DNA of 64,000 nucleotides. It comes from Leuctra nigra (taxonomy: Eukaryota > Arthropoda > Insecta > Plecoptera > Leuctridae). Positions 16,238-55,317 of the stretch are shown here, piece after piece. A model generated the notes under the pieces. That model saw only the letters and a list, made by a program, of their open reading frames with translations. It ran no database searches and had not been told where the DNA came from. The position numbers and the translations under genes are program-made. Numbering within the stretch: position 1 is the stretch's first letter; each line of letters begins with the position of its first letter. The DNA is taken from contig OW203762.1 of the NCBI GenBank assembly GCA_934045905.1, positions 39,719,702 to 39,783,701 of the forward strand, written 5' to 3'.

Positions 16238-19200
16238 TTAGTTTGAGACTTTTGGCAAGTAAAACTTGTGCTTAGTCGTGTCTCGCTTATGCTGGAAGGG
16301 AGACTGTTTCGTCTCCAGCAGGGTGGCTGGACAAGGTCCCGAGTGTCTTGGCACGAACTCCGTCTTGTAAGACGATGTCGACTGCAGGGCAGATGCGGAG
16401 GAATATTCTCCCAAACATACTTGAGACTTTGTGACTCTTTGGGTCGTGTCACTCTGTCCATAGAATGAGCTGCCGCCGACCTGAAGATTGTCACGTCGCA
16501 CCACCTTCTCTGCTGGACGAGGCTGTTGGTACGAAGACGACCAAGCTGTGGCCCTTCTCGACGACGCCCCCGACTCAGTCCTCTGCTGCACCTCTTGCCG
16601 ATGTAATGCAGTTAGACTCTTACGATCGTGACTCTGAGATGAGTTGCTGATGTATTGGCCAGTCTGGCACAGATTCGAGAGACTTTTCCGAGCTGCAGAT
16701 GATACAGTGTGCAATGCATCTGATGAGGTTGTCATACCCTTGCGATGAAGTACCGAGTTGTTCATTTCAGCGGTAGAAGAAGAGATAATATTCTTACGGT
16801 GATGAGCTCCTGAGGATTCTGCAGTGGCACGAGCTTCACTTACTCTCGAGTCAGTTTGCTGCTTCGTCTCTCCACTTAGTGCTTGTCGGAATTCGCTGGT
16901 TGATGCCATCATGCTGTGCCGCTGTTGGCGCAACTCCGAGCTTGACAAGGTTGCTTGTTGTACACTCCTCGACGTCGCCGAGTCCGAAGACACAATCGAC
17001 TGGCGACTTGAAGTTGACTTGTCAGATTCCGTGTGAAGGACAGAGCTGGGTGGACGTGAATCAATAGGACTAGAGCTGGGATGGGACAAGGAAGATCTCT
17101 TGGAAGAGATTTGCGATGATATTGATGAGGCTTCCAAGGATTTTGATGCTACTGATTCGGCCTGATGACCTGACACAATATTTGTTACTTCTCTGGTGAT
17201 TGTTACAGTGCTTCCATCTGCCAATACCTTGGTCTCAGTTGTAACATTCTTCTTGCTGTCTTGATGCCGGCTTTGATTGTTCTTGTTCTGCTCAGAGGTT
17301 CTTTGTGATGTTTTATAACTACCCCTGCTGATTGCTGTACTGTCATCACCCAGGAAAATAGACGATTCAACATGCTTTCTCTTGTTCATAGATGAAGTTG
17401 TTTGCTCGACCACATTCTGTTTTCTTTGGCCGATGAAAGACTCTTTGCTTGTTGTTTTCATATCCATACTGCCAGATCCTACCAGTAAAGAGTCCGCATG
17501 TTTCTTCTGTATTACACGCTCGCCAGTAACGGCTGTAAACTGAGATTTGGATGACGACACTCCAGTGAAACGACCCCCACCAACACTCAGATTGTCGTTA
17601 GGCTTTTGTATTGGTGCACGGTCACCCTTGGCGACAGGGAAGTCGTCTTTGGAATGGACATGCCTGTCAAATTCACCTTCAAGAACCAAATTGTCTGGGT
17701 GAATTTTTATTGGTGACCTCTCTCCCTTAACAATCCCCACACTTTCTGAAACATGTGTGTGTGAAAATTCCCCTTCGAGTTTAAGATTGTCTTCACGTCT
17801 TTTAATAACAACTCTCTCACTTGATTGTGCAACAGAACTTTTCCCACTGCGACGATAGTCTACTTGGCCTTCCAACTTTAAGTTATCTGCATGTTTCACC
17901 GGAGTTGCTCTTTGGCCAGGTCCAACATCAGGTTTGTGCGGTCCCTTGGTTGTAGCCCTTGTGCGGTCAAAATTACCCTCAAGTTTTAGATTGTCATTAT
18001 GCTTGACGATGTCAGCTCGTTCTCCCTTCTTAAAAGCCGCCGGAGTGGGTCTATCAAAATTGCCCTCCATCTTCAGATTATCTGGATGTTTAACTATTGG
18101 AGCCCTTCCACCCGGACCAACATTCGATGGTGAAGGCCAATCAAAATCACCCTCAGGTTTCAAATTGTCCTTAACTTTCTTCACGTCAGCACGCTCACCC
18201 GGTCTAAATTCAGGTTTTGATGGTCTTTCAAAGTTTCCTTCAGGTTTCAGGTTGTCGTCGTATTTCTTCACCTTTGACCGTTCTCCCGGAGAATATTTAG
18301 TCTCTTCAGGACGAACAAACTCACCTTCCGGATGAAGATTATCAACAGGTTTTGTTGCGACTGGTCGTTGCCCAGGTGAGTACTTCTCACGCTCTGGCCT
18401 CTCAAATTCTCCCTCTGGTTTTAGATTATCCTTTGGCTTCTTAACATCAGCCCTTTCTCCTAGCCCACAATCCGGTTGTTTCGTTGGTCTATCAAACTCG
18501 CCTTCTGGTTTAAGATTGTCTGAAGGCTTCTTAATGTCAGCGCGTTCCCCTTTGACAACCTTAAAGTCATCCTTGTATCTTAGGTCTACAAACTGGCCTT
18601 CGATTCGGAGGTTGTCTTCGTGTCTTTTCACTTCAACACGCTCAGACATCATAGCCGAATAATCATCACGGCTGCGGTGAACTTCCCATTCGCCTTCCAT
18701 CCTGAGATTATCCTCATGCTTGGTGATAACACTACGTTCAGCAGGTTTAAACTCTACAGGTTGCGAAGGTCGTACAAACTCTCCTTCGGGTCTTAAATTA
18801 TCTGAAGGCTTCCTAATATCAGCCCGTTCACCCTTTACAACCTTAAAGTCATCCTTGCATCTTAGGTCAACAAATTGCCCTTCGACACGCAGGTTGTCTT
18901 CATACCGCCTGACTTCACATCGTTCAGATGAAACAGCAGAGTAGTCATCCCTTCGGCGAATGTCCCATTCTCCATCCATTCGCAGATTATCTTCATGCTT
19001 GGTAATAATACTTCGTTCTGCTGGCTTAAACTCAGCGGTATGGGCTGGACGTTCGAACTCTCCTTCTGGCTTTAGGTTGTCTTTTGGCTTAACCACATCA
19101 GCTCGATCACCTGGAAGGTACTTAGCTGGTTCTTGTGGCCTAACAAATTCACCTTCAGGCTTTAAGTTGTCTTTCGGGATCTTCTGTTTCGGTCTCTCAG

Positions 19201-25200: not shown

Positions 25201-28200
25201 CTCCCTCAGGATACAGGTTGTCTTGTGGAATCTTCTGTTTCGGTCTCTCAGCAGGAATAAATTCAGTATGCTCTGGTCTTTCAAAGTGACCCTCAGGTTT
25301 GAGATTATCTTTCGGTATCTTGACATCTGGCCGTTCGGCAGGACGGAACTTCTGTGATTCTGGTCGGTCGAACTCTCCTTCAGGTCTTAGATTGTCTTTT
25401 GGTTTCTTCTGCTCAGGTCGCTCAGCTGGGCGATACTCAGGATGGTCAGGACGATCAAATTCACCTTCCGGACGAAGATTATCCTTTGGAACATTCTGCT
25501 TGGGCCGTTCAGCAGGAACAAACTCAGACTGCTTAGGACGATTGAACTGTCCTTCCGGTTTGAGATTGTCTTTTGGTTTCTTAGCTTCGGGCCGCTCACC
25601 TGGTCGATACTTGCTTGAAACAGGTCTCTCAAATTCACCTTCAGGACGCAGATTATCACAGGGTTTTATTTGTTCTGGACGTTTACTTGGTGAGTATTGT
25701 TCTGGCTCTCTCTTGGTAAACTCTCCTTCAGGATGTAGGTTGTCTTTCGGTATCTTCTGTTTAGGTCTATCAGCTGGGACGAATTCTGAATGTTTTGGTC
25801 TGTCGAAATGCCCTTCTGGTTTTAGATTATCTTGAGGCTTCTTAGCTTCAGGACGCTCACCTGGCCGATACTTTTGGGAGACCGGTCTGTCAAACTCTCC
25901 TTCCGGTTTGAGATTATCTTGAGGCTTCTTCTGTTCTGGTCTTTCAGCGGGACGATATTGCGGATGCTCTGGACGATCAAATTGTCCCTCTGGGCGCAAG
26001 TTATCCTTGGGAACCGTCTGTTTTGGTCTTTCAGCCGGAACAAACTCAGAATGTTTAGGTCTGTCAAACTCTCCTTCTGGTTTCAGATTGTCCTTATGTT
26101 TTTTCATCACTGGTCTTTCACCTGGAGAGTATTTTGTGTACTCAGGTCGGCTAAACTCTCCCTCCGGCTTCAGGTTATCAATCGGTTTTGTAGCTACTGG
26201 CCGTTCAGAAGGTTGATACTTTTCTCGTTCCGGTCGATCAAAGTCACCTTCAGGTCTAAGATTGTCACAGGGTTTCCTTACATCTGCTCGTTCTCCTTTC
26301 ACCACCTTGAAGTCGTCTCTGTATCTAAGGTCAACAAATTGACCTTCAATCCGTAGATTGTCTTCGTGTCGTTTTACTTCAACTCGTTCAGTAGTGACAG
26401 AAGAATAATCATCCCGAGAACGGTGCATTTGCCATTCTCCCTCCATCCGGAGATTGTCTTCATGCTTGGTGATGACATTTCGTTCAGCTGGTATGAATTC
26501 GACATGTTTAGTTGGACGCTGAAATTCTCCTTCTGGTCTCAAGTTGTCCTTCGGCTTCTTCACTTCAGCGCGTTCTCCAGGCTTGTATTTCTCAGGCTCC
26601 TGAGGTCTCTCAAACTCTCCTTCAGGCTTCAAGTTGTCTTTGGGTTTCTTCACTTCAACGCGTTCTGCAGGACGATACTTCGCTGATTCTGGTCTATCGA
26701 AGTTGCCTTCTGGTCGCAAGTTGTCATGTGGTCTGGATGGTTCTGGTCTCTTGCTCGGAGAGTATTGTTCCGGTTCTCTCTTGGTGAACTCTCCTTCTGG
26801 ATACAAGTTGTCTTGTGGAATCTTCTGTTTCGGTCTCTCAGCAGGAATGAATTCAGTATGCTCTGGTCTTTCAAAGTGACCCTCGGGTTTAAGATTGTCT
26901 TTTGGCTTCTTGGCCTCAGGCCTATCAGCAGGGCGGAACTTCTGTGATTCTGGACGTTCAAACTCTCCTTCTGGTTTGAGATTGTCTCTAGGTTTCTTCT
27001 GTTCTGGTCGCTCAGCTGGACGATACTTCGGATGATCTGGACGCTCGAACTCTCCCTCGGGACGTAGATTATCCCTTGGAACAGTTTGTTTTGGTCTCTC
27101 TGCAGGAACATAATCCTTTTGTTCCGGCCTCTCGAATTTACCTTCAGGATGTAAGTTATCTTTAGGAATCTTCTGTTTCGGACGTTCTCCTGGAATAAAC
27201 TCGGACTGCTCTGGACGCTCAAACTGTCCTTCTGGTCTCAGGTTATCTTTCGGCTTCTTCTGGGTCGGCCTTTCAGCTGGCGTGAATGGTGACTTTTCTC
27301 GCTTCTCAAACTCCCCTTCTGGTTTCAAATTGTCTTTCGGCTTAGTAACTTCTACTCGCTCCGCAGGACGGTACTTGGTAGATTCAGGCCTCTCAAATTC
27401 ACCCTCTGGTTTGAGATTATCATGGGGTTTGGTTGCTTCTGGTCGTTTGGAAGATGTATATTGCTCGTATTCTCTCTGAGCAAACTGTCCTTCTGGATAC
27501 AAGTTGTCCTTCGGGATCTTTTGCTTCGGTCTCTCAGCTTGGACAAAATCGGATTTTTCTGGTCTATCAAAGTGACCCTCCGGTCTCAAGTTGTCTTTTG
27601 GTTTCTTCTGCTCAGGACGATCAGCAGGTTTAAATGGAGACTTCTCGGGTCTGTCGAACTCACCCTCTGGTTTAAGATTGTCCTTCGGTTTCGTGGCTTC
27701 TGGACGTTCTGCTGGTCGATACTTGGCAGATTCAGGTCTCTCGAACTCCCCTTCTGGACGCAGGTTGTCATGTGGTCTGGTTGGTTCTGGCCGCTTACTC
27801 GGAGAGTATTGATCTGGTTCTCTCTTAGTAAACTCTCCCTCAGGATACAGGTTGTCTTGTGGAATCTTCTGTTTCGGTCTCTCAGCAGGAATGAATTCAG
27901 TATGTTCTGGTCTTTCAAAGTGACCCTCAGGTTTGAGATTATCTTTCGGTTTCTTGACATCTGGCCGTTCGGCAGGACGGAACTTCTGTGATTCTGGTCG
28001 GTCGAACTCTCCTTCAGGTCTTAGATTGTCTCTTGGTTTCTTCTGCTCAGGTCGTTCAGCTGGGCGATACTCAGGATGGTCAGGACGATCAAATTCACCT
28101 TCCGGACGAAGATTATCCTTTGGAACATTCTGCTTGGGCCGTTCAGCAGGAACAAACTCAGACTGCTTAGGACGATCAAACTGTCCTTCAGGTTTGAGAT

Positions 28201-31200
28201 TGTCCTTAGGCTTCTTCTGTTCAGGTCGTTCAGCTGGTCGATACTTGGCTGATTCAGGTCTCTCAAACTCCCCTTCGGGTCGCAAGTTGTCATGTGGTCT
28301 GGATGGTTCTGGTCGCTTGCTCGGAGAGTATTGTTCAGGTTCTCTTTTAGTGAACTCTCCTTCTGGATACAAGTTGTCTTGTGGAATCTTCTGTTTCGGT
28401 CTCTCAGCAGGAATGAATTCAGTATGCTCTGGTCTTTCAAAGTGACCCTCGGGTTTAAGATTGTCTTTTGGCTTCTTGGCCTCAGGCCTATCAGCAGGGC
28501 GGAACTTCTGTGATTCTGGACGTTCAAACTCTCCTTCTGGTTTGAGGTTGTCTCTAGGTTTCTTCTGTTCTGGTCGCTCAGCTGGACGATACTTCGGATG
28601 ATCTGGACGCTCGAACTCTCCCTCGGGACGTAGATTATCCCTTGGAACAGTTTGTTTTGGTCTCTCTGCAGGAACATAATCCTTTTGTTCCGGCCTCTCG
28701 AATTTACCTTCAGGATGTAAGTTATCTTTAGGAATCTTTTGTTTCGGACGTTCTCCTGGAATAAACTCGGACTGCTCTGGACGCTCAAACTGTCCTTCTG
28801 GTCTCAGATTATCTTTCGGCTTCTTCTGGGTTGGCCTTTCAGCTGGGGTGAATGGTGACTTTTCTCGCTTCTCAAACTCCCCTTCTGGTTTCAAATTGTC
28901 TTTCGGCTTAGTAACTTCTACTCGCTCCGCAGGACGGTACTTGGTAGATTCAGGCCTCTCAAATTCACCCTCTGGTTTGAGATTATCATGGGGTTTGGTT
29001 GCTTCTGGTCGTTTGGAAGATGTATATTGCTCGTATTCTCTCTGAGCAAACTGTCCTTCTGGATACAAGTTGTCCTTCGGGATCTTTTGCTTCGGTCTCT
29101 CAGCTGGGACAAACTCGGATTGCTCTGGTCTCTCAAAGTGACCCTCCGGTCTCAAGTTGTCTTTTGGTTTCTTCTGCTCAGGTCGATCAGCAGGTTTAAA
29201 TGGAGACTTCTCGGGTCTGTCGAACTCACCCTCCGGTTTAAGATTGTCCTTCGGTTTCGTGGCTTCTGGACGTTCTGCTGGTCGATACTTGGCAGATTCA
29301 GGTCTCTCGAACTCTCCTTCAGGTCGCAGGTTGTCATGTGGTCTGGTTGGTTCTGGTCGCTTACTCGGAGAGTATTGATCTGGTTCTCTCTTAGTAAACT
29401 CTCCCTCAGGATACAGGTTGTCTTGTGGAATCTTCTGTTTCGGTCTCTCAGCAGGAATGAATTCAGTATGTTCTGGTCTTTCAAAGTGACCCTCAGGTTT
29501 GAGATTATCTTTCGGTTTCTTGACATCTGGCCGTTCGGCAGGACGGAACTTCTGTGATTCTGGTCGGTCGAACTCTCCTTCAGGTCTTAGATTGTCTCTT
29601 GGTTTCTTCTGCTCAGGTCGTTCAGCTGGGCGATACTCAGGATGGTCAGGACGATCAAATTCACCTTCCGGACGAAGATTATCCTTTGGAACATTCTGCT
29701 TGGGCCGTTCAGCAGGAACAAACTCAGACTGCTTAGGACGATCAAACTGTCCTTCAGGTTTGAGATTGTCCTTAGGCTTCTTCTGTTCAGGTCGTTCAGC
29801 TGGTCGATACTTGGCTGATTCAGGTCTCTCAAACTCCCCTTCGGGTCGCAAGTTGTCATGTGGTCTGGATGGTTCTGGTCGCTTGCTCGGAGAGTATTGT
29901 TCAGGTTCTCTTTTAGTGAACTCTCCTTCTGGATACAAGTTGTCTTGTGGAATCTTCTGTTTCGGTCTCTCAGCAGGAATGAATTCAGTATGCTCTGGTC
30001 TTTCAAAGTGACCCTCGGGTTTAAGATTGTCTTTTGGCTTCTTGGCCTCAGGCCTATCAGCAGGGCGGAACTTCTGTGATTCTGGACGTTCAAACTCTCC
30101 TTCTGGTTTGAGGTTGTCTCTAGGTTTCTTCTGTTCTGGTCGCTCAGCTGGACGATACTTCGGATGATCTGGACGCTCGAACTCTCCCTCGGGACGTAGA
30201 TTATCCCTTGGAACAGTTTGTTTTGGTCTCTCTGCAGGAACATAATCCTTTTGTTCCGGCCTCTCGAATTTACCTTCAGGATGTAAGTTATCTTTAGGAA
30301 TCTTTTGTTTCGGACATTCTCCTGGAATAAACTCGGACTGCTCTGGACGCTCAAACTGTCCTTCTGGTCTCAGATTATCTTTCGGCTTCTTCTGGGTTGG
30401 CCTTTCAGCTGGGGTGAATGGTGACTTTTCTCGCTTCTCAAACTCCCCTTCTGGTTTCAAATTGTCTTTCGGCTTAGTAACTTCTACTCGCTCCGCAGGA
30501 CGGTACTTGGTAGATTCAGGCCTCTCAAATTCACCCTCTGGTTTGAGATTATCATGGGGTTTGGTTGCTTCTGGTCGTTTGGAAGATGTATATTGCTCGT
30601 ATTCTCTCTGAGCAAACTGTCCTTCTGGATACAAGTTGTCCTTCGGGATCTTTTGCTTCGGTCTCTCAGCTGGGACAAACTCGGATTGCTCTGGTCTCTC
30701 AAAGTGACCCTCCGGTCTCAAGTTGTCTTTTGGTTTCTTCTGCTCAGGTCGATCAGCAGGTTTAAATGGAGACTTCTCGGGTCTGTCGAACTCACCCTCC
30801 GGTTTAAGATTGTCCTTCGGTTTCGTGGCTTCTGGACGTTCTGCTGGTCGATACTTGGCAGATTCAGGTCTCTCGAACTCTCCTTCAGGTCGCAGGTTGT
30901 CATGTGGTCTGGTTGGTTCTGGTCGCTTGCTCGGAGAGTATTGATCTGGTTCTCTCTTAGTAAACTCTCCCTCAGGATACAGGTTGTCTTGTGGAATCTT
31001 CTGTTTCGGTCTCTCAGCAGGAATGAATTCAGTATGTTCTGGTCTTTCAAAGTGACCCTCAGGTTTGAGATTATCTTTCGGTTTCTTGACATCTGGCCGT
31101 TCGGCAGGACGGAACTTCTGTGATTCTGGTCGGTCGAACTCTCCTTCAGGTCTTAGATTGTCTCTTGGTTTCTTCTGCTCAGGTCGTTCAGCTGGGCGAT

Positions 31201-34200
31201 ACTCAGGATGGTCAGGACGATCAAATTCACCTTCCGGACGAAGATTATCCTTTGGAACATTCTGCTTGGGCCGTTCAGCAGGAACAAACTCAGACTGCTT
31301 AGGACGATCAAACTGTCCTTCAGGTTTGAGATTGTCCTTAGGCTTCTTCTGTTCAGGTCGTTCAGCTGGTCGATACTTGGCTGATTCAGGTCTCTCAAAC
31401 TCCCCTTCTGGTCGCAAGTTGTCATGTGGTCTGGATGGTTCTGGTCGCTTGCTCGGAGAGTATTGTTCCGGTTCTCTTTTAGTGAACTCTCCTTCTGGAT
31501 ACAAGTTGTCTTGTGGAATCTTCTGTTTCGGTCTCTCAGCAGGAATGAATTCAGTATGCTCTGGTCTTTCAAAGTGACCCTCGGGTTTAAGATTGTCTTT
31601 TGGCTTCTTGGCCTCAGGCCTATCAGCAGGGCGGAACTTCTGTGATTCTGGACGTTCAAACTCTCCTTCTGGTTTGAGGTTGTCTCTAGGTTTCTTCTGT
31701 TCTGGTCGCTCAGCTGGACGATACTTCGGATGATCTGGACGCTCGAACTCTCCCTCGGGACGTAGATTATCCCTTGGAACAGTTTGTTTTGGTCTCTCTG
31801 CAGGAACATAATCCTTTTGTTCCGGCCTCTCGAATTTACCTTCAGGATGTAAGTTATCTTTAGGAATCTTTTGTTTCGGACGTTCTCCTGGAATAAACTC
31901 GGACTGCTCTGGACGCTCAAACTGTCCTTCTGGTCTCAGATTATCTTTCGGCTTCTTCTGGGTTGGCCTTTCAGCTGGGGTGAATGGTGACTTTTCTCGC
32001 TTCTCAAACTCCCCTTCTGGTTTCAAATTGTCTTTCGGCTTAGTAACTTCTACTCGCTCCGCAGGACGGTACTTGGTAGATTCAGGCCTCTCAAATTCAC
32101 CCTCTGGTTTGAGATTATCATGGGGTTTGGTTGCTTCTGGTCGTTTGGAAGATGTATATTGCTCGTATTCTCTCTGAGCAAACTGTCCTTCTGGATACAA
32201 GTTGTCCTTCGGGATCTTTTGCTTCGGTCTCTCAGCTGGGACAAACTCGGATTGCTCTGGTCTCTCAAAGTGACCCTCCGGTCTCAAGTTGTCTTTTGGT
32301 TTCTTCTGCTCAGGTCGATCAGCAGGTTTAAATGGAGACTTCTCGGGTCTGTCGAACTCACCCTCCGGTTTAAGATTGTCCTTCGGTTTCGTGGCTTCTG
32401 GACGTTCTGCTGGTCGATACTTGGCAGATTCAGGTCTCTCGAACTCTCCTTCAGGTCGCAGGTTGTCATGTGGTCTGGTTGGTTCTGGTCGCTTGCTCGG
32501 AGAGTATTGATCTGGTTCTCTCTTAGTAAACTCTCCCTCAGGATACAGGTTGTCTTGTGGAATCTTCTGTTTCGGTCTCTCAGCAGGAATGAATTCAGTA
32601 TGTTCTGGTCTTTCAAAGTGACCCTCGGGTTTGAGATTATCTTTTGGTTTCTTGACATCTGGCCGTTCGGCAGGACGGAACTTCTGTGATTCTGGTCGGT
32701 CAAACTCTCCTTCAGGTCTTAGATTGTCTTTTGGTTTCTTTTGCTCAGGTCGCTCAGCTGGGCGATACTCAGGATGGTCAGGCCGATCAAATTCACCTTC
32801 TGGGTGAAGATTATCTTTCGGTATTTTTTGTTTAGGTCTTTCGGCAGCTACGAATTCTGTCTGTTTTGGCCGATCAAACTGACCTTCCGGCTTCAGATTG
32901 TCTTTTGGTTTTTTGACTTCTGGACGTTCCCCTGGTCTGTATTTTGCGGACTCAGGCCGCTCAAATTCACCTTCAGGGCGAAGATTGTCATGTGGCTTGG
33001 ATGGTTCAGGTCGCTTACTCGGTGAATAAGATTGGGGTTCTCTCTTTGCAAACTCCCCTTCTGTCCTTAAATTGTCTTCCGGTATCTTCTGCTTCGGTCT
33101 CTCCGCTGGTATGAACTCTGATTGTTTAGGTCGGTCAAATTGGCCTTCCGGTTTAAGATTGTCTTTTGGTTTTTTCTGCTCCGGTCGCTCTGACGGACGA
33201 TACTTCGGATGATCCGGCCGATCAAACTCTCCCTCAGTTCGCAAATTGTCTTTTGGAATTGTTTGTTTAGGTCTCTCTGCTGGAATATACTTTTGATGTT
33301 CTGGTCTTATAAATTCACCTTCAGGTTTGAGGTTGTCCTCATGTTTCCTTACTTTTGGACGTTGTCCTGGAGAGTATACTACATTCTCGGGACGTATGAA
33401 TTCGCCTTCTGGGTAGAGATTATCGACAGGTTTTGTTGCTACCGGACGATAACCTGGTGAGTACTTTTCTCTCTCTGGCCGTTCAAATTCTCCCTCTGGT
33501 TTAAGATTGTCTTTTGGTTTCTTAACATCAGCTCTCTCACCTGGCTTAAATTCAGACTGTCTTGTCGGTCTCTCAAAGTTTCCTTCTGGCCTCAAATTGT
33601 CAATCGGCCTCTTGACATCAGCCCGTTCTCCTCTGACGACCTGGAAGTCATCCTTATATTTCATGTCAACAAATTGACCTTCAATACGTAAGTTATCTTC
33701 ATGTCTTCTCACCTCAACTCTTTCAGACTTCACAGCACAATAATCATCTCGACTTCGATGCACCTCCCATTCCCCCTCCATCCGGAGATTATCTTCATGC
33801 TTAGTGATAACACTGCGTTCAGCTGGTCTAAACTCTACTTGCTTAGATGGGCGCTCAAACTCTCCTTCGGGCATAAGATTGTCCTTAGGTTTCTTTACTT
33901 CCGCTCTTTCTCCAGGTCTGAATATGGATGGTTTTTCCGGTCTTTCAAATTCACCTTCTGACTTCAAATTGTCTCTAGGTTTCTTTACTTCCAGTCTTTC
34001 AGCTGGACGATACTTAAGTGACTCTGGTCTATCGAATTCCCCTTCTGGTTTCAAATTGTCAACGTAACGCTTCTGCTTTGGTCGCTCAGCAGGCTTGTAT
34101 TCTGGATGACCTGGTCTTTCAAACTCTCCCTCAACCCATAAGTTGTCTTTTGGTTTTGTTGGCTCTGGGCGTTTTCCAGGAGAGTACTGGTCAGGTTGTC

Positions 34201-34966: not shown

Positions 34967-37900
34967 CTGAAAAATTAAGAATGCTGTTATACTAGAGTTA
35001 TTCTAGCATTAAAGACTCCTACTGAAAATAAGGATGTAATAAAAAAAAAAAATCAAGTAGGCCCACACATCCTCTCATCTTACCCAGTAATTTAATTTTC
35101 TTTTGCAATACATTGTATAGCGATTAACTTAATTGAATTGTCTGATGATACTGAGCTCAAGTCTGACATCAGAACCATGCAAAAAATAAAAGCTACTGAT
35201 GATCATTTTGTATATCAAAGTATCACAATTATCATGAACTTTTCTTGGTAAATACGTGTCAAAGGTTGACATTTAATACCATATTTTGAGAGTTATAGAC
35301 TTATTAATACTAATTATTAATGGAATGAAAACTACAACTTCAACAACTTTCAACAACTTGTTGAACTTAGGACATTCAGACGAATTAATTTTGATATGAA
35401 AGGACGTGTGAAGTGAAAACAATCCCGCCGAACTATGTTTTGAACCTGGGACTTGACCAATTAGAGCTCTACAAACTGCACTACCACCAGGATGATAGGT
35501 AGGAACGTTTTAATTAGAATATTGAGTCCAGATAAGCTCAAATATGTATACATTTCAACCATCTGGAATGACTCCACTGCACAATTAATTCACCCAATAA
35601 ACATTAAAAATCTTTAAGAATACGTAGGTACTAGAATATTTTCACAATTAGGAATGAACATTGAATTCATTCCTGAATGCAACTACATAGTTGAAACAAA
35701 CTTTGAGCACTTTGACTATCATCACATAAACGGATATTTCCCTATGATACTGTGTTACCCCATTAATCGTTTATAAAACAATGTAACAATTATTAATGAA
35801 AATTTAATTTTGCAATTCACTCACTTGAAATTGTCCGCCCACCGTGAGATTGTCACTGTGTCGCTCGGCTTGTTGTGTGCGCACCACGTGACTGTGCTGC
35901 TTCAGCTCAGCCCGACTGGTAGTCTCCATGTGCATCTCACCCTCCATCTTGGTCCACGTATTTCGACGGATCATCGGTGATCGCTCGCCGGTCTCGCCCG
36001 TAAACTCGGCAGCAGATGTTGTCAAACCTTAAAAATTTACATTGTTATTGTCAGTGTCTATGCAGAGGTTGACTGGGTGGACTGGCCCAGGTGAGGTCAA
36101 TTCTTGTTTTGAAAATCGCTTTTGAAATCGTTTACTAGGTCTTTGAAAACTTGAAAACGTTGAAGGCTAATGCCTAATTATCAACTTTTAAGTGTGAACG
36201 ATTTCAAAACGTGGAGCTCAAGAGTTGATCTTCATGACATTTTTACATGTTCTACAAACGTAGAATCTGAATTACCTACATTAGAAATTATAAAGGACAC
36301 TCGTCATTAAAAAAAGAGTTATAACTTGGTGGTCCCATGGCAATTGAGGCATTGTGAATGCATGAACTATGAAAGAGGTGACAAGGTTTGCCTGGTAATT
36401 ATTTATTGCCATTTCAGATCTTCTTTCCCGTTTCTGAATTTAATCTTTAATTGAATAGTATGTACCTGGCTTCAAGACTTGTTTTAACCCTTAGTCCTCC
36501 CTTTCCACATTTGAATGAGGTGGGGGGTGAATGGAGGGATAACATTTCACTTGCGGCCCACTGTACAAGAACAAGACTGTCTTGCATATAAGAAAATAAT
36601 TAATAAATGCAATATTGGGAGTGTAATTGATGTTAACATACCTGTGAATGTCCCGCCAGTAATGAGATTGTCATCACAACGTCGAATTTGTTCCCTTCTT
36701 TTTGTTGTCTCGCCAGAAAACTCACTTTTCCTTTGTCCAGTAAATTCACCCTCCATACGTAGATTATCCTTGGGTTTGATAGCATCAGGGCGTTTCTCTG
36801 GAGTAAACTCTGAAGTGTGTCGTTTGGCAAACTCCCCTTCCGGTTTTAGATGATCTGGATGTTTAACAATCTCTGCCCTTTCTCCGCGTTTTGAAGTGAA
36901 CTCATCTCTCCTAAATCCAGAAAATTCCCCTTCAAGTTTCAGATGATCTCCATGCTTCACAATTTCTGCTCTTTCTCCTCGAACTGCAGTGAATTCGTCT
37001 CTCCTAACTCCAGAAAAGTCCCCTTCAAGTTTCAGATGATCTCCATGCTTCACAATCTGTGCCCTTTCCCCTTTTGTTGCTGTGAACTCATTCTTCCTCA
37101 CTCCGGTAAAATCTCCCTCAAGTTTGAGTTGGTCCTTCAGCTTCCGCACTTCGACTCTCTCGCCACGGACCACGGTGTAGTCATCGTGATGTTGACTGTG
37201 GCCTTGAAAATCTCCCTCCAGTCGAAGATTGTCCTCGTGCTTGACGATGGCAGCTCGCTCGCCGCGCTCGATGTGCCGGAACTCTTCGTGGGTGCGATGG
37301 GTTCCGTAGAACTCACCTTCTGAGTGAAGGTGGTCCTCGTATTTGTATCTGGAATTTCAATCATTTTTATTAAGTATTTAATCAATGATGAATATGGTCA
37401 CTTGATCAAATCTACCATCAGTTTTCATTATTTATCATTCCCTCTACTACTGGCCTGTGACATTGCAATGGGTGGAGTGAGTGTTGGAGTGTTGGCTACC
37501 TTGGTTCGGTAAGATTGCACTTGCACCGAGGTTAATACTTAATGGGTTCCAACATAATTATTCATAGTAGGTAGTTCATGCCATTTTCAGAGGCTGAGAT
37601 GGTTGGGTGTAGTGTGGTGAAGAGAACTCCACCTATACAGTCACTTCAGTCAATGGTCTTAGAAGGGTGGAGGAAGCCTGTAATGTAATATTATTAGATA
37701 ATACATAACCAGGGGCCCCTGGGATGTTTTGAATGGAGTCAATAGGTATGTAGGTACCAACTTCCCTATACAAATGTCAGGTTTCCTCTCCACTCCACCC
37801 TTCTAAATCGTCATCATTGCCGAATTAGATTTTACTGGTAACATTATCATTTAAATAATTAACAATCAATGCTGACTATGTACTACTACACAAACAATGT

Positions 37901-40900: not shown

Positions 40901-43900
40901 CCCGATATGCCTGCTGTGCTGCCTAGTTCTTTTGCCTGGTCGAAGCTAGGAGAGTTGTGACCCTGACACCTCAATGGTGTCACTAACCACACTTCTTCAA
41001 AATATGATCTGGACACTCACCTCGTTTGCCTGTCAGCATGTTTCTCGTCGTAATCGGTTCTGTAGGCAGTGGACGTCTCGATGTCACCCTCTGGTCTGCC
41101 GATGGCGCTGTGTAAGCGCTGCATCTGCGGCCGGGTGACATCTTGATGTGCGGGAAAAGAAGCGTGTGTACTCGACGTGAGGCCGACGAAACTCGAGTCT
41201 GATTGGTCGAACGGAGCTACATCGGCGCCTTTCGCGTGAATACAACGATGACGTCTAGAAAGCGGCGTGGGAAACACGTGTGAAAACATTGTTGACAAGT
41301 GGATGACAACAGTTGATAAGCAGTGTCGGACTGGGGCAAAATGTCTTACCGGGCAACAGATTAGAAACCGGCCCACGGAAAAAAGCGGCCCATTTTCAGA
41401 AAGAACTTATTTTGGCAAAACTATGCTATAAACCAGCGGCAGGCGCGTAGGAACTTTGTTTTGAGTGGGGGGATTAAAATTATCGGTAATCGATGTATGT
41501 GAGGAAAGGGGGACTGGGAGGGACATCCCCTCAGATAGCCCCGCAGGGCATTTTTTAAATTTTGGATATATAATAATCGAATTTGAAGCTATTTTGGCAA
41601 TTTATTCAAAGAAATTTAAATTGTGTTATGTATGCAATACTCTTGGGAAAACCAAGGGAAAACTTTAGACAAAATGCAATATAATCTGCAAATTTTGTTA
41701 TTTGAACAAATCCCCAATTGCTCCGCAGGTCATATTTTGAGTTTTGATATAAAAGAATCTAGTTTGAAGCTATTTAGGTATATTTCAAATAAATGTAAAA
41801 TGTGTGATATGCATTTTCCTGTGGAATCTTTAGATAAATGTGATATAATCTAAAAAAAGGTGTCTTAATAGAAACCTCTTTGGCCCCGCAGGGCATATTT
41901 TGATTTTTTGATACAAAATAATCGAATTTGAAGCTATTTTGGCATCCATTTCAAAGAAATGAAAAATGTGTGATATGCATTTTCCTGTGGAAACTTTTAC
42001 AAATGTGATATAATCTGTAACCTGTTGTCTTAATAGAAACCCCATTGGCCCCGCAGGGCATTTTTTGAGTTTTTGATACAAAAGAATTAAATTTAAAGCT
42101 ATTTTGGCATCCATTTCAAAGATTTTAAATTTGTGATATTCATTATCCTGTGGAAACTTTAGACAAATGTGATATAATTTGAAACTTTTTGTTTTACAGA
42201 AACACAATTGGCCCCGCAGGGAATTTTTTGATTTTTTGATACAAAATAACCGACTTTGAAGCTATGTTGCATCCATTTCAAAGAAATTTAAAATGTGTGA
42301 TATGCAATATTCTTGGGAAAACTTTAGTCAAATGCAATATAATCTGCAAATTTTGTTATTTGATCAAATCTCTAATGGCCCCGCAGGGAATTTTTTTTCG
42401 TACTTTCTGTACCTACGAAAGTCAATTTGTGAATTTTCCTTTCGTTTTCACCAAAAACTGTCTTCGATTTTAGTAGTCATTAGGAATTTTCTGGTCCTTC
42501 TACCTAAACCGCCAATGTATAAACAGTCCATTGCAGTGCGGTTCGGTCCGAACTTGAAGAACCGTTTGAGCTGCCCAGACAGACGAGGTCCGATATCATA
42601 TTATAAGTATACAATACTCTAAGATAAGAACACCTTGCAATTGAAGTAGATGGTGTATTGCTTAATGGGATGTGCTCTACGTAACATTGTAATTCTAGAC
42701 TATGAATTAAGTAGAGATATTTTATGGAAGTCGACACCGGCTCTTTTCTACAAGTCGATCGGCCCATTTTGAACCGGCCCACCGGGCATTGCCCGGTTGC
42801 CCGGCGGCCCAGTCCAACACTGTTGATAAGTAAGTAAGTAAGAAGAAGTTGAGAACAATTGCGTAAATCTACAGTAAAAAGATCGTAGCATCACCCACTA
42901 AATTCGTACAATCGTTTTGGAACTGAATACCTAATTGATTGATACCGATACCTTTTTTATTTTTATACTTAGATTGCATATTTTTGTAAAGTGTATTATT
43001 TCAGAAATTAATCAAGCAAAGTGTAGGCAGCAGTGTAGGCAGCAGCAGCTTTCTACAGGGAACAATCAAAGCAACAAACTTTAAACTTCAAAGTAAATAG
43101 CTTACATTAATCTACATTCGCCCGAATGACTTATAATTGTTCAGGTTTGCTATATTTATAGGCAATTAATTTGCAATTAATGTCGAGTCCGTCCCACATT
43201 CCGATTGTCTCATTGCAATGCAAGCAGGATGCAATGACACCTGCATTCAAATGCAACAGGTGTCATTTGATACTTGTTATCAGTCTGTTCAACTAGCGGC
43301 GAAATAGACAGAAACAGGAAATGTGGATCCAAATAATTACAAGTGAAGACTGAATCATCAACAATAATCTAGTGGAGCGGTCGCTCCACCCAGCCAAGTC
43401 GTACCGTACACTCACACGCACTCAACATACCGTAAATGCCTATAATAAACTGAGGAGCAGACCAACCACTTTTACTGTAAGCAACAACATGGCATTTTCG
43501 GCCTACTGGATCATAAAATTGGAAAATCTCACATTGTTGTGAAATATCTAAATTTCGAGCTATGGCCCACCCCACTCCATATACTAAATTTGGGAACAAT
43601 AGGTTATGCCATTTGCGTGCTAGAGGGCCGTGAAAACAGTGAAATTACACCCCTTTTAAAACCTATCTGATGATGATGATAATGATATCAGGAAACACCG
43701 CTATCACCGCCACAGCCTAAACGGCTTAGCCGATCGATCTGAAATTTTTACCACATGTGCACTTTTGGCGTCTGAGGTGCCTTTTTATAAATCAAACCGG
43801 TAGTCGCCATTTTGAAACCGGAAGTGACGTCATATATCAAAAACGGCTGGACCGATTAGAACGAAATTAGCGCCATTCGATTTAGAAGGTCATCTATGTG

Positions 43901-49900: not shown

Positions 49901-52900
49901 AACGTTATCCCTAACCTAGATGCATATAAGTGAGTCCATAAACAGAAATACACACATTACGTGTTTCTAAATTCTTCGAAAAATTTGTTATTTAAATACG
50001 AGAATTATCTAATGACCATTTTCGCGAGTGGTGTACTTGGTATATGTCGCAATGATGCCAGAAGAAGCAGACTTGACCGTATTAGCGTCCGCCAAGTGCT
50101 TCGAGATCTCGTCGTCAGAATACCAATACTTCGTGATGCTGCGGTGGAATACACCTACCTAACCTATAATACCTATATTCATACCGAGTAGTCTCGGCTG
50201 CTTTATGGTCGGCCATCCAAATAAGGTGTAGTCTTGGAGATCTACTTTCCCATTGGCTACAGACCGGCCTGGCAACCAACTTGTCTTGTATTTACGACCC
50301 ACTTTGCAATTCCTCAGCGAGGATGTTTTTGCCGGCCGGCTTTTCCTTCTTGTCTGGCTCTGTGATGTTTAAAGCGCTTAAAACCCAAGGTTGTCTAAGG
50401 AACTTTAAATGGGATTAAATCCCTGTGTTCCATTGTTTCCCCTCCCTCCGTCAAGCTGAAAAGTTGTAAATCAAAGCTAACCAGATATGATTCATGGCTT
50501 TTGTGGGGAGGTACACGAAGAAAGTTTTTAAATGTACACCCAACAAATCATAAAACGGTATCTGAACGAAACGGATTGGTTGCTGGTGAGGTTCCTTGAC
50601 AATCAATCCTTGTTATTATCAATGAAACCAGAGCTCAACTACTAGAGGTAGATGACGAGTTAGCATAGACTTCATCGGATGATGCCATCACATTTTTTCA
50701 GACAACCTATTTCTTACAAATACCGTTTTATCATTTGTTGAGTGTATACAGCTCAAAGATTAAATTGTCGATGATTCGAAATTTCAGAAAGTCTATTTTT
50801 TGGACGGAGTTGATAGTGGAATAGGTACATTAGAAATTATAATCTCTTCTAATAATCTCTACGGTAATACCAATGGTAATACGGTAGAGATAAGACGTTA
50901 TTTTCTCCCTTTGTACTGAATTTGAGCTATGAACTTTAGAGATGTTTTGAGCTTTTGGCGGTAAGCTGCTAAACGTCAATGAACGACGTAGCTTGGTAAT
51001 GTGTAGGTTGTGTTGAATGGAAGTGGTCAAAATAACTATAATTATAAATCAACCATTGCCTGACAGCATGGACGTGATGATGTGTAACCCATGTTTATAG
51101 GACATCGTTGTACTTTATCCGTTTTGTTTATAAAAAAGTATTAAATGCTCGTGCATGACTGCACTAAATACTTCCTTTCTTGGTATAAGTACAATTGCTC
51201 ATTACTTAAGGATAACTCAAAATTAGCGATGACGTTCACACATTACAGTATTTCTATACATAGTTTATAATCGTGCTTCATTTTTACTTTTTACCTTCCA
51301 TCAATAAAAGTTACTTTACTGATAACTAATCTACTAAAATAATCAACAAATGCAGCTTAAATCTTATTTTTCGTGATAACGAAGCTGATAGTCAGTCTTA
51401 ATCTCACCTTTTATTGATTCAAAAAATTAGATAATTTAGAGACGGGGTCGGCAACCTTTTTGGTGATGGAGCCAATTTCCCAAAAATTATAAATTATAAT
51501 TTATTATAGATAATAATGGGAGCCGCAGTAGGCGCAATCACATTATAATACAGCGACTAGTTTTTCTTGATATTTTGACGAAGCTCCCCAATTGTTGTCC
51601 CGCAGGGCGGCATTTTTTAAAGATTTTCAACAATTTAACAGTGATTCTGGGACTCTAAAATGAACAAACTGAATCAAATAACCTCCCAATTGTTGCCCCG
51701 CTGGACGCCTTTTTCCAAATTTCAAATTTTTCGATTCCAGATTTGTATTCAATAACCACCAAGGAGCCGCAGGTTGGCGACCTCTGATTTAGAGGATTAC
51801 GATAAATTAGCATTCGTGTATAAATATACACAGGCGTTAATTGACCCATAAAGTCAAATCGAGAGAAACTTTGTTTGTATTCTGTTTAAGGTAATGAGTT
51901 TGAGTGACGTGCATGTCAGAGACCCCGGGGGAAAGTGTTGAAGTGTTCTTTACGTTACGTGAGTCCAGGGATTGCGTGTTGCGTGCTGCTAGACACTCAC
52001 CCACAAGTACAAATCTCGCAGACGCATTGTTCCTTGAGCGTCGCGGCGGCGTCCTTGGCCGTCGTCTTAGTCCCCTTCTTCGCCGGCAGGAAGGCGTCGG
52101 TGCGCTGTAGCGTCGCGAGCATCTCGGCGGTGGCGTGACTGACGTCGGTCACGTGGGCGTGTGAAGACTTGGCGTCGACAGCAGACGACTCTGTAGTCTG
52201 AATCGCTGATCCTCCGGAGGTTCTCTTATCCTGGATCGTTGAGAGAGATTCTCCTGTTGAGCTTACACCAACCTGGTGGGAAGTTGAGCTTGAACTCTCC
52301 TGAATTGCTTTACTTGACACAACCTGGCTTGAGCTTGAACTTGAAATCTCCTTGACTGATTTGCTTGAGACAGCTTGACTTGAGCTGGATATCGCCTTGC
52401 TTGACGATGAATGTGATATCTCCTCGCTAGCTTTGCCTGATGCAGCTTGGCTTGAACTGGATATCGCCTGGCTTGATGATGATCGCGATAACTCCTGGAT
52501 TGCTTGGCTGGACGTAGCTTGACTTGAGCTGGATATCGCCTTGCTTGACGAGGAATGCGATATCTCCTCGCTAGCTTTGCCTGATGCAACTTGGCTTGAA
52601 CTGGATATGGCCTTGCTTGACGAGGAATGTGATATCTCCTGACTTGCCTTGCTGGACACCGCTTGACTTGAGCTGGATATCGTCTGGCTTGACGAAGAGC
52701 GTGATATCTCTTGGACTGATTTTCTGGACACAGCCTGGCTTACACTTGAGCTGGATAATTCCTGCACTGAAGATTTACTTGAAACCTTCTGGCTTGAGGA
52801 TTGGCCTCCTACAGTCTGGCTTGACACAATCCTGCTTGAAGATTGGTTTGCCTGGTCCCCAACTAGTTCACTTGAGGACTTGCTAGAAATTAATTCATCG

Positions 52901-53487
52901 TTGGATTTACTGGCAGCGCCGTGACTTACAAACTCACTTGATTTACTCGACTGCACTTGACTGCTTGTGCCACTGGAGACCACCTCGCTGACACTAGAAG
53001 ATGAAACCAAGTTAGACATCATTCCACTCTCAGAGGAACTTTTCCCGGCAATAACATGCTTAGTGCTGTCAACAATCAGTGCAGTGCCATTCGTGCCGTC
53101 AATGATCTGTGTAGTGCCATTAGTGCCATCAATGATGTGCGTCGTGCCATTAGTGCCGTCAACAATAAGCGTCTTCCCCTCGAGGACGCCGCCACCCTCC
53201 GACGTGTGCGCGTCGCCGACATCGTACGTGAACGACGTCGAGACGCCGCCACGCGACGTCGACGCACCGGACCTCTTCGACGACTTCGTCACAGTGTTAG
53301 AACTCGACGACTTGACAAGCGTCGTAAACGCCTGCTTCTGCACCGACGTCGACGTCGTCTTACTCTCTACCAGAGTCTTCCCGACGACCATCTGACAACT
53401 ACCTCCATGACTCGTTCCCGCTTGTGACGTTACTTGAGTCGTCGTACTCTTCGTGCCGGAGCCACTCTTCTTCTTCTTCACCGTCAT
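16238..53487 (-). CDS. Giant SAXO-like (FAM154) microtubule-associated repeat protein, about 7119 residues (whole gene, spliced)
   Basis: Five minus-strand exons (53487-52001, 41254-41021, 37348-36642, 36027-35825, 34966-16238) join in phase with GT-AG introns to 7120 codons including the stop. Residues 1-487 are Ser-rich. The first junction yields CVCEICTCGRHRCIH, the cysteine signature found at the N-terminus of SAXO proteins. Residues 496-573 hold a SAXO-like TSTAYRTDYDEKHADR segment. Residues 574-877 carry divergent modules (ERAEIVKHxDHLKLEGEF). Residues about 1004-6710 hold about 195 modules of 29 residues, consensus KPKDNLKPEGEFERPESxxY and then RPAERPEVK. Residues about 6713-7119 are Ser/Gln-rich with one last module and the end KHKFYLPKVSN. 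Known SAXO proteins line or bind stable microtubules (axonemes, centrioles, protist cortical microtubules) through repeats of about 30 residues. The same is inferred here. Usual members have about 300-500 residues, so this is roughly fifteen times longer. Upstream UTR or coding exons are possible. Confidence 0.8.
17460..34620 (-). repeat. 87-bp coding tandem array with higher-order units (1566, 2634, 4200 bp)
   Basis: The basic unit is 87 bp (29 codons). Eighteen units form a 1566-bp block. Equivalent positions recur at about 20588, 23222, 24788, 27422, 28988, 30554 and 32120, so the spacings are 2634, 1566, 2634, 1566, 1566 and 1566 bp. The 2634+1566 pair is itself duplicated in tandem (4200 bp; compare 21.8 kb with 26.0 kb). 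All lengths are multiples of three. The last 1566-bp blocks are almost identical at the DNA level. Confidence 0.85.
34967..35824 (-). other. Intron 4 of the giant gene, with a tRNA-derived SINE
   Basis: An 858-bp intron (donor CAA|gtgagt at 35824, acceptor tttttcag at 34967). It is AT-rich and its only recognisable element is the SINE head near 35425-35510. Confidence 0.7.
35425..35510 (-). mobile_element. tRNA-derived SINE head (A and B boxes)
   Basis: On the minus strand, GGTAGTGCAGTTTGTAGAGC (A-box-like) is followed about 25 nt later by CCCAGGTTCAAAAC (B-box-like, 35437-35449). No fold into a full functional tRNA is evident. Confidence 0.5.
35825..36027 (-). CDS. Giant SAXO-like gene, exon 4
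   Basis: The acceptor is tttttaag|GT, with one base carried from exon 3 making GGT (Gly). The exon ends at phase 0 (TTTCAA|gtgagt). It encodes EFTGETGERSPMIRRNTWTK, then MEGEMHMETTSRAE and HSDNLTVGGQF: two diverged modules where DNL or EG is still visible. The frame matches exons 3 and 5. Confidence 0.75.
36028..36641 (-). other. Intron 3 of the giant gene
   Basis: A 614-bp intron (G|gtatgt ... tttttaag). No gene or element is recognised inside it. Confidence 0.65.
36642..37348 (-). CDS. Giant SAXO-like gene, exon 3 (divergent, ancestral-looking modules)
   Basis: The acceptor is aattccag|A. The carried AG completes Arg and the frame continues YKYEDHLHSEGEFYGTHR. Eight or nine modules follow, such as RGERAAIVKHEDNLRLEGDF, RGERVEVRKLKDQLKLEGDF and RGERAEIVKHGDHLKLEGEF. 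Sequence differs much more between these than within the exon 5 array. HHDDYTVVRGER resembles the DDY cassette that punctuates exon 5. Confidence 0.8.
38258..40330 (+). CDS. LINE reverse transcriptase (690 codons, uninterrupted)
   Basis: RT motifs appear in order: a fingers/palm region with NYRPISILPSISKIFEK, AFDSINHK (about residue 315), GVPQGSILGPLLF (about 376), IYADDTN (about 405, catalytic aspartates present), KFLGIIID, and the C-terminal ESHIRYGIQFWG and ALFGLKYKN. An apurinic endonuclease domain, expected upstream in jockey/CR1-like ORF2, is absent, so the copy is 5'-truncated although the RT frame is intact. The apparent start codon is where the frame opens, not a demonstrated initiation site. 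The element is antisense inside intron 2 of the giant gene. Confidence 0.9.
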   Translation: MHAPAPPVKSVKINHKFIKQEWISPGIKNSAKNLKFLYQLQLHYKTEKLITKYKLYKKIYKKTIKAAKRLIINKKIKEKSGIDRTKTIWEIVKRHTNKSKIQQNKNIVINHENQTIKDPIKIANILNKDFANIAQNLDVNSSENAFNRHLTKAKRPVNSFFMDSTCDTEIIQITSKLKNKRSAGVDNLPTCILKKIVTNISLPLAHIFNDCIDKGTFPKKLKIGKITPLFKKGDRNKSENYRPISILPSISKIFEKLIHTRIITYLEREKLLTESQSGFRKNKSTTNTIDNFIQNTIKGLEDGEQTIGVFCDLAKAFDSINHKILLSKLEYYGVRGPALDLLKSYMQDRVQQVEITHMNEKREEIKHLSNPEPIINGVPQGSILGPLLFIIYINDLPDTIVASEIYADDTNITITGKTKLNLEENAKCTLSNATKWFYDNHLLIQETKTNYMHFKLKNVINETPLKIVMSNKNETNYLRGVEQTKFLGIIIDKNLNWKSHCQNLLSKLNSAYFSLKTIVNLTNTKTAKLVYYANIESHIRYGIQFWGNSTDASKIFILQRKAIRALFGLKYKNNTYIKPDCKQHFVKHKILTMPCLYILESILAIRSQEELIQNNSDIHKYNTRQKNNFHVDRHRSTCTQKNSLFFKTKMYNALPKNLRDIQKYSLFKKQVKELLVSKVYYSVDEFLLDK
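38258..40707 (+). mobile_element. 5'-truncated jockey/CR1-like LINE with (CTGAA)n tail
   Basis: The RT frame is followed by about 350 bp of AT-rich 3' UTR, an AATAAA at about 40678-40683 and a terminal (CTGAA)4 stretch at 40686-40707, a typical microsatellite tail for this LINE group. The 5' limit is uncertain and may lie slightly upstream of 38258. Confidence 0.8.
40776..40788. repeat. Poly(G) tract, 13 nt
   Basis: A G run in a purine-rich stretch just past the LINE tail, in intron 2. Confidence 0.8.
41021..41254 (-). CDS. Giant SAXO-like gene, exon 2 (second half of the SAXO cysteine signature)
   Basis: The acceptor is tttctag|A. With GG carried from exon 1 it makes Gly and continues RHRCIHAKGADVAPF. 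It later reads RPEGDIETSTAYRTDYDEK and HADRQTR up to the donor AG|gtgagt. T-S-T-A-Y-R-x-D-Y is close to the TTYKxDY core of SAXO Mn modules. The phase agrees with exons 1 and 3. Confidence 0.85.
41321..42822. mobile_element. Non-autonomous hAT transposon, 1502 bp, with 8-bp target duplication
   Basis: The ends are CAGTGTCGGACTGGG (41321-41335) and the inverse complement of CAGTGTTGGACTGGG (42808-42822), one mismatch in 15. TTGATAAG is duplicated exactly on both sides (41313-41320 and 42823-42830). No transposase frame is present. Its interior is a tandem array of about 165-bp units. The left end is only about 65 bp from the splice acceptor of exon 2 of the giant gene. Confidence 0.9.
41538..42400. 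repeat. About 165-bp tandem repeat, about five copies, inside the hAT element
   Basis: The motif GCCCCGCAGGGCATTTTTTG (with variants) recurs at about 41538, 41720, 41883, 42048, 42211 and 42378. It is followed each time by AATCGAATTTGAAGCTATTT, a TTCAAAGAAAT block and ATGTGATATAATCTG. Confidence 0.85.
43680..44150. repeat. Dispersed-repeat segment with a duplicated 'ACCGGAAGTGA' module
   Basis: CGCCATTTTGAAACCGGAAG is followed by AACGGCTGGACCGATT and AACGAAA at about 43810-43870. A second copy, with one extra base in AAAACCGG, is at 44070-44130. Similar wording is common in arthropod transposable elements, but I cannot name the family. Confidence 0.5.
44298..44655. mobile_element. Fold-back element, arms of about 148 bp
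   Basis: Arm 44298-44445 is the near-exact inverse complement of 44508-44655, with a 62-bp loop. Both arms include CACTCCGTGTAAAAATACCA (or its complement) and GATGCGCCAAGTATTTTTTG. It would transcribe into a long hairpin within intron 1. Confidence 0.85.
45402..45704 (+). pseudogene. Possible decayed coding sequence (one frame, two stops)
   Basis: One frame of 101 codons begins MSNMDETNAVNGETDSL and is broken only by a TAA (45480-45482) and a TGA (45597-45599). Between them it reads YMEKLRKKTSNIMILVPISK and then LIGQECARMQVE. Composition looks protein-like, unlike the surrounding AT-rich DNA. I do not recognise the family. It could be a processed pseudogene fragment or chance. Confidence 0.35.
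47901..47921. repeat. Poly(G) tract, 21 nt
   Basis: An uninterrupted G run in intron 1 of the giant gene. Confidence 0.85.
48080..48170 (+). mobile_element. tRNA-related SINE head
   Basis: TGAGCTAGATGAAGG (A-box-like, 48089-48103) is followed by GGTTCGAACCC (perfect B box, 48147-48157). Acceptor-stem pairing and an ordinary anticodon arm are not convincing, so this is called a SINE or tRNA relic, not a tRNA gene. Confidence 0.5.
49176..49196. repeat. Poly(G) tract, 21 nt
   Basis: A G run within a stretch of short CCGGTTGC/CCCGGTTG repeats at 49150-49250. Confidence 0.85.
49436..49665 (-). mobile_element. SINE copy (minus orientation)
   Basis: Read on the minus strand it ends ...GACGTTAAGCCC(C)AGAC then poly(A) (T run on the plus strand at 49440-49446). 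It contains TTTTCCCTCAGTCGACAGGC and the CATTAGCCTCGCTGCAGAAC block shared with 59895-60160. The 5' tRNA-like head is lost. Confidence 0.7.
49722..49741. repeat. Poly(G) tract, 20 nt
   Basis: A G run in intron 1, about 60 bp from the SINE copy. Confidence 0.85.
50537..50744. mobile_element. TA-flanked MITE (Tc1/mariner-like)
   Basis: Its ends are CACCCAACAAATCATAAAAC and, inverted, CACTCAACAAATGATAAAAC, followed by GGTAT. TA lies on both sides (50535-50536 and 50745-50746). A second, inverted copy is at 63183-63367. Confidence 0.75.
51442..51786. mobile_element. hAT-type MITE, 345 bp, with 8-bp target duplication
   Basis: The ends are ACGGGGTCGGCAACCT and, inverted, CAGAGGTCGCCAACCT, the CAGRGGTCGGCAACC type of hAT terminus. 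ATTTAGAG is duplicated on both sides (51434-51441 and 51787-51794). Its middle carries GTCCCGCAGGGCGGCATTTT, similar to the repeat in the hAT element at 41.3 kb. It lies about 210 bp inside intron 1 from the exon 1 donor. Confidence 0.85.
52001..53487 (-). CDS. Giant SAXO-like gene, exon 1 (Ser-rich N-terminus and first half of the cysteine signature)
   Basis: ATG at 53487 opens MTVKKKKSGSGTKS. A short repeat, IIDGTNGTT(Q/H/A), occurs about four times near residues 105-140. Then come about 200 residues of SSSSQAxSSKAxxEISxSSS repeats of about 22 residues. The exon ends EQCVCEICTCG and donor GG|gtgagt. In known SAXO proteins the cysteine motif is at the extreme N-terminus, so the roughly 485 preceding residues are an added, low-complexity extension. 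An acceptor-like TTTCAG lies 11 bases before the ATG, so an upstream exon could exist. Confidence 0.75.
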
Positions 53488-55310: not shown

Positions 55311-55317
55311 AGTGCAA

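Follow-up and report, generated by a model that had tools for sequence, protein, structure and literature searches.

The window, a 64,000-nucleotide stretch of Leuctra nigra DNA analysed at its full length, contains on its minus strand what is probably an insect SAXO-type gene ('SAXO downstream of blistered' in one database entry) that has been enlarged to 7119 residues and whose product would stabilise microtubules through ends made of Mn units. Its membership of the SAXO family is supported by sequence features: a cysteine (Cys) motif, Mn units at both ends of the protein and a C-terminal Mn unit with a Cys-Pro motif. The features of the gene are as follows.

52001..53487, minus strand: exon 1, with the start codon, a Ser/Thr-rich N-terminus and the first half of the Cys motif, LKEQCVCEICTCG
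41021..41254, minus strand: exon 2, with the second half of the Cys motif, RHRCIH, and the first Mn-like core
41050..41082, minus strand: canonical Mn-like core IETSTAYRTDY (pattern search; N-terminal profile)
36642..37348, minus strand: exon 3, with divergent N-terminal repeats of the DHLKLEGDF type
37177..37209, minus strand: Mn-like core of canonical spacing, FQGHSQHHDDY (pattern search)
35825..36027, minus strand: exon 4, with the remainder of the Mn unit FTGLTTSAAEF and a RRNTWTKMEGE segment
16238..34966, minus strand: exon 5, 6242 residues and the stop, with the repeat array and a conserved C-terminus
17597..34582, minus strand: array of units of about 29 residues, consensus DNLKPEGEFERPESSKYRPAERPEQKKPK (motif count)
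26697..32821, minus strand: nested higher-order duplication with a 1566-bp period (18 units), 99.1% identity over 4559 bp
17537..17569, minus strand: canonical Mn-like core FTGVSSSKSQF, past the array (pattern search)
16355..16387, minus strand: final Mn-like core LQSTSSYKTEF (pattern search; C-terminal profile)
16328..16339, minus strand: GPCP, the Cys-Pro motif that the last Mn unit shares with SPM1 and with published descriptions of SAXO proteins

The five exons join in frame into 21,360 nt, which is divisible by three, with a single stop at the end. On inspection of the sequence, a GT donor and an AG acceptor are present at all four junctions. The exon 1 ATG is preceded by an in-frame stop 27 bases away, exon 5 sits within an open frame of 6254 codons, and AATAAA/ATTAAA sites are found downstream of the gene's stop codon. 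The preliminary description had claimed five exons of agreeing phase, a total length divisible by three and 7119 residues, and the GT/AG borders together with the open joined frame uphold that model.

Protein searches recovered 24 distinct relatives of 1713-4437 residues (8, plus 23 of which 7 overlapped), one of these searches covering protein lengths of about 3433-10,923 residues. They comprise 21 insect proteins, one protein of the same sequence type (P0008) and two spider proteins (P0024 and P0025); among the 22 insect-type relatives, P0011-P0015 are five isoforms of one gene. One relative, from Kallima inachus (A0A897Q0L2; P0017), is named 'SAXO downstream of blistered'. A start with MTI or MTV, as in the window protein, is seen in 12 of the 22 insect-type relatives, and a CP motif occurs near the C-terminus of 23 of the 24 relatives, the exception being P0020, whose model stops early. 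A tree of 16 C-termini gives the window protein no firm placement among insects, the nearest relative by path being termite P0028. A segment within exon 2 is common to the phylloxera and psyllid relatives and is lacking in the hymenopteran ones. Bee relative P0003 has an extra acidic and KR-rich tail past the SAXO C-terminus (residues 3780-4437), probably because annotation fused two genes; its last 557 residues have no tblastn match in the window.

A third search scored 7984 candidates and returned 25 matches, mostly fragments (from termite, louse, psyllid and others); C.C..C.CG occurs in one of the 25, and some resemble another Mn-repeat family. Three weak matches (P0040, P0043 and P0045) bear LxxEGxxE and PEYxxxF-type repeats and resemble MDM1 proteins. 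The accessible text of one paper names MDM1 as a Mn-repeat protein (PMC10973386).

The relatives also bear on the splice junctions. Nineteen of their alignments span the exon 1/exon 2 junction with 12 residues covered on each side, the best being gap-free and identical at 10 of 12 and 8 of 12 positions on either side. The exon 2/exon 3 and exon 3/exon 4 junctions are likewise crossed, with best identities of 9/12 and 9/12 (termite P0028) and of 6/12 and 8/12 (P0011), respectively, many of the spanning alignments at these two junctions being off-register repeat matches. Local alignment support for the exon 4/exon 5 junction is weak; RRRTWTKxD, which lies just past it in the window protein, recurs in relatives. 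Searching with the N-terminal parts of the 22 relatives (tblastn, low-complexity filter on) found no further exons in the window. Missing exons in the 10.7-kb intron were considered and rejected, the tblastn search having matched only the end of the known exon 1 there, a search that filtered Ser-rich exons could escape. The five-exon splice model with its split Cys motif is confirmed at the level of sequence.

Several other features lie within or near the gene. Intron 2 holds, antisense to it, a 691-residue reverse-transcriptase open reading frame (38255-40330, plus strand; RVT_1, 2e-31), which belongs to an intact-looking element, presumably of the non-LTR type. A 165-bp tandem repeat of about four copies occupies 41656-42396 in intron 1, near exon 2, and a 48-bp tandem repeat (2.9 copies) lies upstream of the gene at 55315-55451. 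Three further minus-strand pieces, namely a start that by eye resembles a signal peptide (10983-10549), a weak F5/8 type C match (5087-4803; 8e-4, below the cut-off) and a basic KR-rich segment (2591-1962), might be exons of one secreted neighbour gene spanning 1962-10983, although this is a guess.

Both halves of the Cys motif are unique in the six frames of the window: C.C..C.CG has its single occurrence at first base 52026, and H[RKH]C.H has its own at first base 41250. In 50 base shuffles of the window, C.C..C.CG appeared on average 0.02 times per shuffle. Together they form EQCVCEICTCGRHRC, beginning at residue 488 of the protein and not at its extreme N-terminus. SAXO proteins, according to the accessible text of PMC3280300, carry cysteines in an N-terminal motif (motif 1), Mn-like units in repeated copies, and Cys-Pro in the last of these units. 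Motif 1 has the pattern [GR][KT]CVC[ESR][LI]CTCGK[HC][KR]C. The window sequence fits this pattern from CVC onward, except for R in place of K; the two preceding residues differ. C.C..C.CG is present in 22 of 22 insect-type relatives, followed by H.C.H, unsplit, in 21 (it is missing in P0021), which bears out the earlier claim that a SAXO-like Cys signature forms across exon 1 and exon 2. The full motif is absent in both spiders: P0024 is a partial protein, and P0025 opens with an odd exon holding RHICPH.

Canonical Mn cores were sought with the pattern [FILVMYW].[GDETS].[TS]....[DEQ][FY], written after viewing the sequence and the published syntax. The window protein has five, all in its flanks, three before the array and two after it. 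Shuffled sequences matched the observed count in 0 of 2000 cases for the N flank, 6 of 2000 for the C flank and 1 of 2000 for the whole protein, figures that are descriptive because the pattern followed inspection of the sequence. The core at 41050..41082 bears out the Mn-like core that had been proposed for exon 2. At the C-terminus, STSSYKTEFVPRHSGPCP is a last Mn unit with a Cys-Pro motif, as in SAXO proteins. The protein has a pI of 8.97 and contains 910 P among its 7119 residues, in line with the basic pI and high proline given as a SAXO feature in the same accessible text (PMC3280300). A further SAXO property, that canonical Mn units make up most of the protein, does not hold here, since the pattern search found zero cores in residues 1000-6439. 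The preliminary description contained neither the C-terminal Cys-Pro Mn unit nor the array's lack of canonical cores.

The space between the flanks is taken up by DNLxxEG units or close variants, 203 in the whole protein and 194 in exon 5, with 165 of the 202 unit-to-unit intervals measuring 29 residues. In all 165 units of 29 residues, positions 1, 3, 6, 7 and 9 are D, L, E, G and F, and 164 of these units have Y or F at position 17; this last position can change, the second aromatic often being W in the moth/butterfly type (P0017). The spacing from F to the next F or Y is 8 in 168 units, 9 in 23, 10 in 5 and undefined in 7; the Mn core is therefore two residues shorter in 168 of the 203 units than in spiders or SPM1. 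Spacing 8 is also the commonest defined spacing in P0002 (26/62), P0003 (31/62), P0011 (25/46) and P0019 (8/16), so a contracted core spacing appears to be common to the window protein and other insect relatives. In P0017 the spacing is undefined in 23 of 33 units because W often occupies the second aromatic position. Spider Mn cores (for example, FANESTTKTEY) mostly follow a 33-residue period, and spider units of DNL form mostly have spacing 10 (9/10 in P0024, 6/8 in P0025). Some of the spider cores stand directly after DNLKLEGG, which links the insect unit to a Mn core plus its inter-repeat. The insect array unit thus looks like a shortened Mn-plus-inter-repeat unit, and because residues 1000-6439 hold no canonical core, the tubulin contact made by Mn may be missing from 168 of the 203 units.

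The codons of the array point to a translated and selected sequence: third positions are the most variable, and pN/pS is 0.345 among 110 distinct 29-residue units (3000 of 5995 pairs; pS 0.78, saturated), as expected of a translated array that, on this evidence, is under purifying selection. AlphaFold2 gave no globular fold for exon 3 (6 sequences; mean pLDDT 50) and no secondary structure for six array units (4 sequences from the window itself; mean pLDDT 65, pTM 0.11), results that are weak evidence because the alignments were shallow.

The array could instead be an elastic, PEVK-like spacer, a charged, proline-rich spring or tether that is titin-like without being titin, the ends alone binding microtubules. 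Its composition (15.9% P, 15.6% E, 11.7% K and 10.6% R), the missing fold and the loss of canonical Mn cores would suit such a role. A name including 'titin' is shown for 10 of the 22 insect-type relatives, in agreement with the earlier remark that the last exon, annotated alone, would look titin-like. However, V accounts for only 2.8% of the array, and the conservation of D, L, E, G and F in 165/165 units and of an aromatic at position 17 in 164/165 exceeds what a spring would seem to need, so the spacer is a somewhat unlikely explanation. Titin itself was rejected: no Pfam match to an Ig, Fn3 or kinase domain was found at E 10 in exon 1, exons 2-4 or two exon 5 pieces, the other approximately 4500 exon 5 residues, outside the scan, being repeats of the array unit.

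The array appears to have grown by nested duplication within the last exon, where the 1566-bp period is accompanied by further blocks, 95-98% identical at a 4200-bp offset, outside 26697..32821. Such similarity raises a second alternative, in which the SAXO-like protein is real and the length of its array is inflated by the assembly or varies between individuals. The near-identity of the blocks (95-99%) favours this, as does the length of the longest other relative found, 4437 residues; yet the frame stays open across 18.7 kb, the copies are not identical, and relatives with 35-62 units exist, which makes an inflated or variable length unlikely.

Against solved structures, a profile of nine N-termini matches SPM1 (4.3e-9), SAXO1 (8.2e-5) and STOP axonemal protein (0.012), and a profile of 12 C-termini matches SPM1 at 7e-9, the best stretch being its last, CP-bearing repeat. 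The SPM1 E-values are whole-chain sums over the motif and the repeats, the best single stretches reaching only 0.13 (N) and 0.21 (C); for SAXO1 in the N-terminal profile a single stretch reaches 9.2e-5. SAXO1 is not matched by the C-terminal profile, whose sole further matches, near E 1, come from two antibody chains. In the HMM search that had been suggested for the spliced N-terminus, the window piece alone scores below the cut-off of Pfam SAXO1-2 (E 0.0056; 16.2 bits against 26.5), over 18 residues, and NifZ scores better on the same piece (E 0.00043; 20.4 bits, on the repeats). NifZ, which reaches 3.7e-5 with exon 3 alone, is below its own Pfam cut-off and was rejected as surely unrelated; NCBIfam RPE3 on exon 3 (0.0013, under the cut-off) was taken as chance. 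Three of nine relatives scanned (P0010, P0024 and P0025) pass the SAXO1-2 cut-off. The spider relatives do so over long stretches (3.1e-35 and 5e-26) and the Ceratosolen relative on the Cys motif (1.4e-7), and spider P0024 matches SAXO1 in the PDB at 7.4e-12. Exon 5 gave no Pfam match in two pieces scanned (989 and 753 residues) and no PDB match for one piece tried. These array results, the sub-cut-off SAXO1-2 score and the absence of SAXO1 from the C-terminal profile matches count against the reading as a SAXO-type stabiliser, as do the lack of canonical cores in residues 1000-6439 and the lack of secondary structure in the modelled array units. A third alternative, favoured by the sub-cut-off single-sequence Pfam match confined to 18 residues, is that the Cys motif arose by convergence, as a metal-binding or palmitoylated tag attached to a structural repeat protein of cuticle or muscle unrelated to SAXO. 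It is very improbable, because the N- and C-terminal profiles, the spider relatives and the order of the parts all indicate SAXO.

If the protein is a SAXO-type stabiliser, its mode of action may be modelled on known Mn proteins, which, in the accessible texts of PMC10973386, PMC8144581 and PMC12228683, stabilise microtubules, their Mn units attaching to the luminal face every 8 nm, at the intra-dimer site of tubulin. The end Mn units would bind tubulin at the site in the lumen that SPM1 uses and would stabilise the microtubule, and the extended array between them would run along or beside the lattice. The D, L, E and G and the two aromatics kept in each unit suggest a modified lattice contact, with roughly one unit to each 8-nm tubulin dimer, and not loose filler; the lost [TS][TS]x4[YF] helix argues against the original Mn contact in the array. 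More speculatively, the protein could act as a microtubule ruler, each contracted 29-residue unit contacting one tubulin dimer and nested duplication of units tuning array length or stiffness, an idea that we consider doubtful and that would give a span of 203 x 8.2 nm, or about 1.66 micrometres. Were the ruler true, a SAXO branch would have left the cilium, replaced the helix that binds the lumen by a contact of extended form and come to serve giant non-ciliary insect arrays.

The likely setting for the stabiliser would be a very stable and possibly non-ciliary microtubule array, such as the transalar arrays of wing intervein cells, a guess based on the butterfly relative's database name and on fly wing biology. 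That name suggests, as a hypothesis, a fly gene, symbol sdb, controlled by blistered. Literature searches gave no match for 'SAXO downstream of blistered' or 'downstream of blistered', and among the matches listed, which covered few subscription journals, no paper describing insect SAXO-type giants was found. A text search of the honeybee 'TITIN' paper (PMC13207407) gave no match for the terms tried.

The preliminary description had regarded a SAXO relative of about 7100 residues as undescribed. Size and unit number are indeed new in this copy, judging by the relatives' sequences (the longest relative found has 4437 residues to its 7119, and no relative counted has more than 62 units to its 203), but large relatives, one of them SAXO-named, are already public. 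The combination of canonical Mn ends with a contracted middle is seemingly undescribed and common to other insect relatives. Judged by sequence, a set of insect proteins often filed as 'titin' would fall within the SAXO family of microtubule stabilisers, which could exceed 7000 residues through duplication of an altered Mn unit. The gene offers a direct test of SAXO action on non-ciliary insect microtubules and of tubulin binding by the contracted unit.

Among known systems, the PEVK segments of titin and projectin share with the window protein units rich in P, E and K, the titin PEVK unit being 28 residues long; the window protein has SAXO ends and, in the pieces scanned, no Ig, Fn3 or kinase domain. 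Toxoplasma SPM1 (7miz) shares the N-terminal CTCGxHxC and a last Mn unit with CP, but it has 351 residues with six repeats bearing canonical cores and has been shown in the microtubule lumen. SAXO1 and SAXO2 (FAM154; Pfam PF05217) share the Cys motif and the Mn cores of the flanks; the PDB chain of SAXO1 has 477 residues, and the array pieces scanned here are without a Pfam or PDB counterpart. Closest are the insect-type relatives P0002-P0023, with which the window protein shares the Cys motif, a nearby Mn core, DNLxxEG units, the C-terminal CP unit and the contracted spacing. The N-terminal half of the hymenopteran relatives is longer and contains KPGxSTWDGxF repeats, of which there are none in window exon 1, and the window protein exceeds all the insect-type relatives in length (7119 against 1713-4437 residues) and in units (203 against 1-62).
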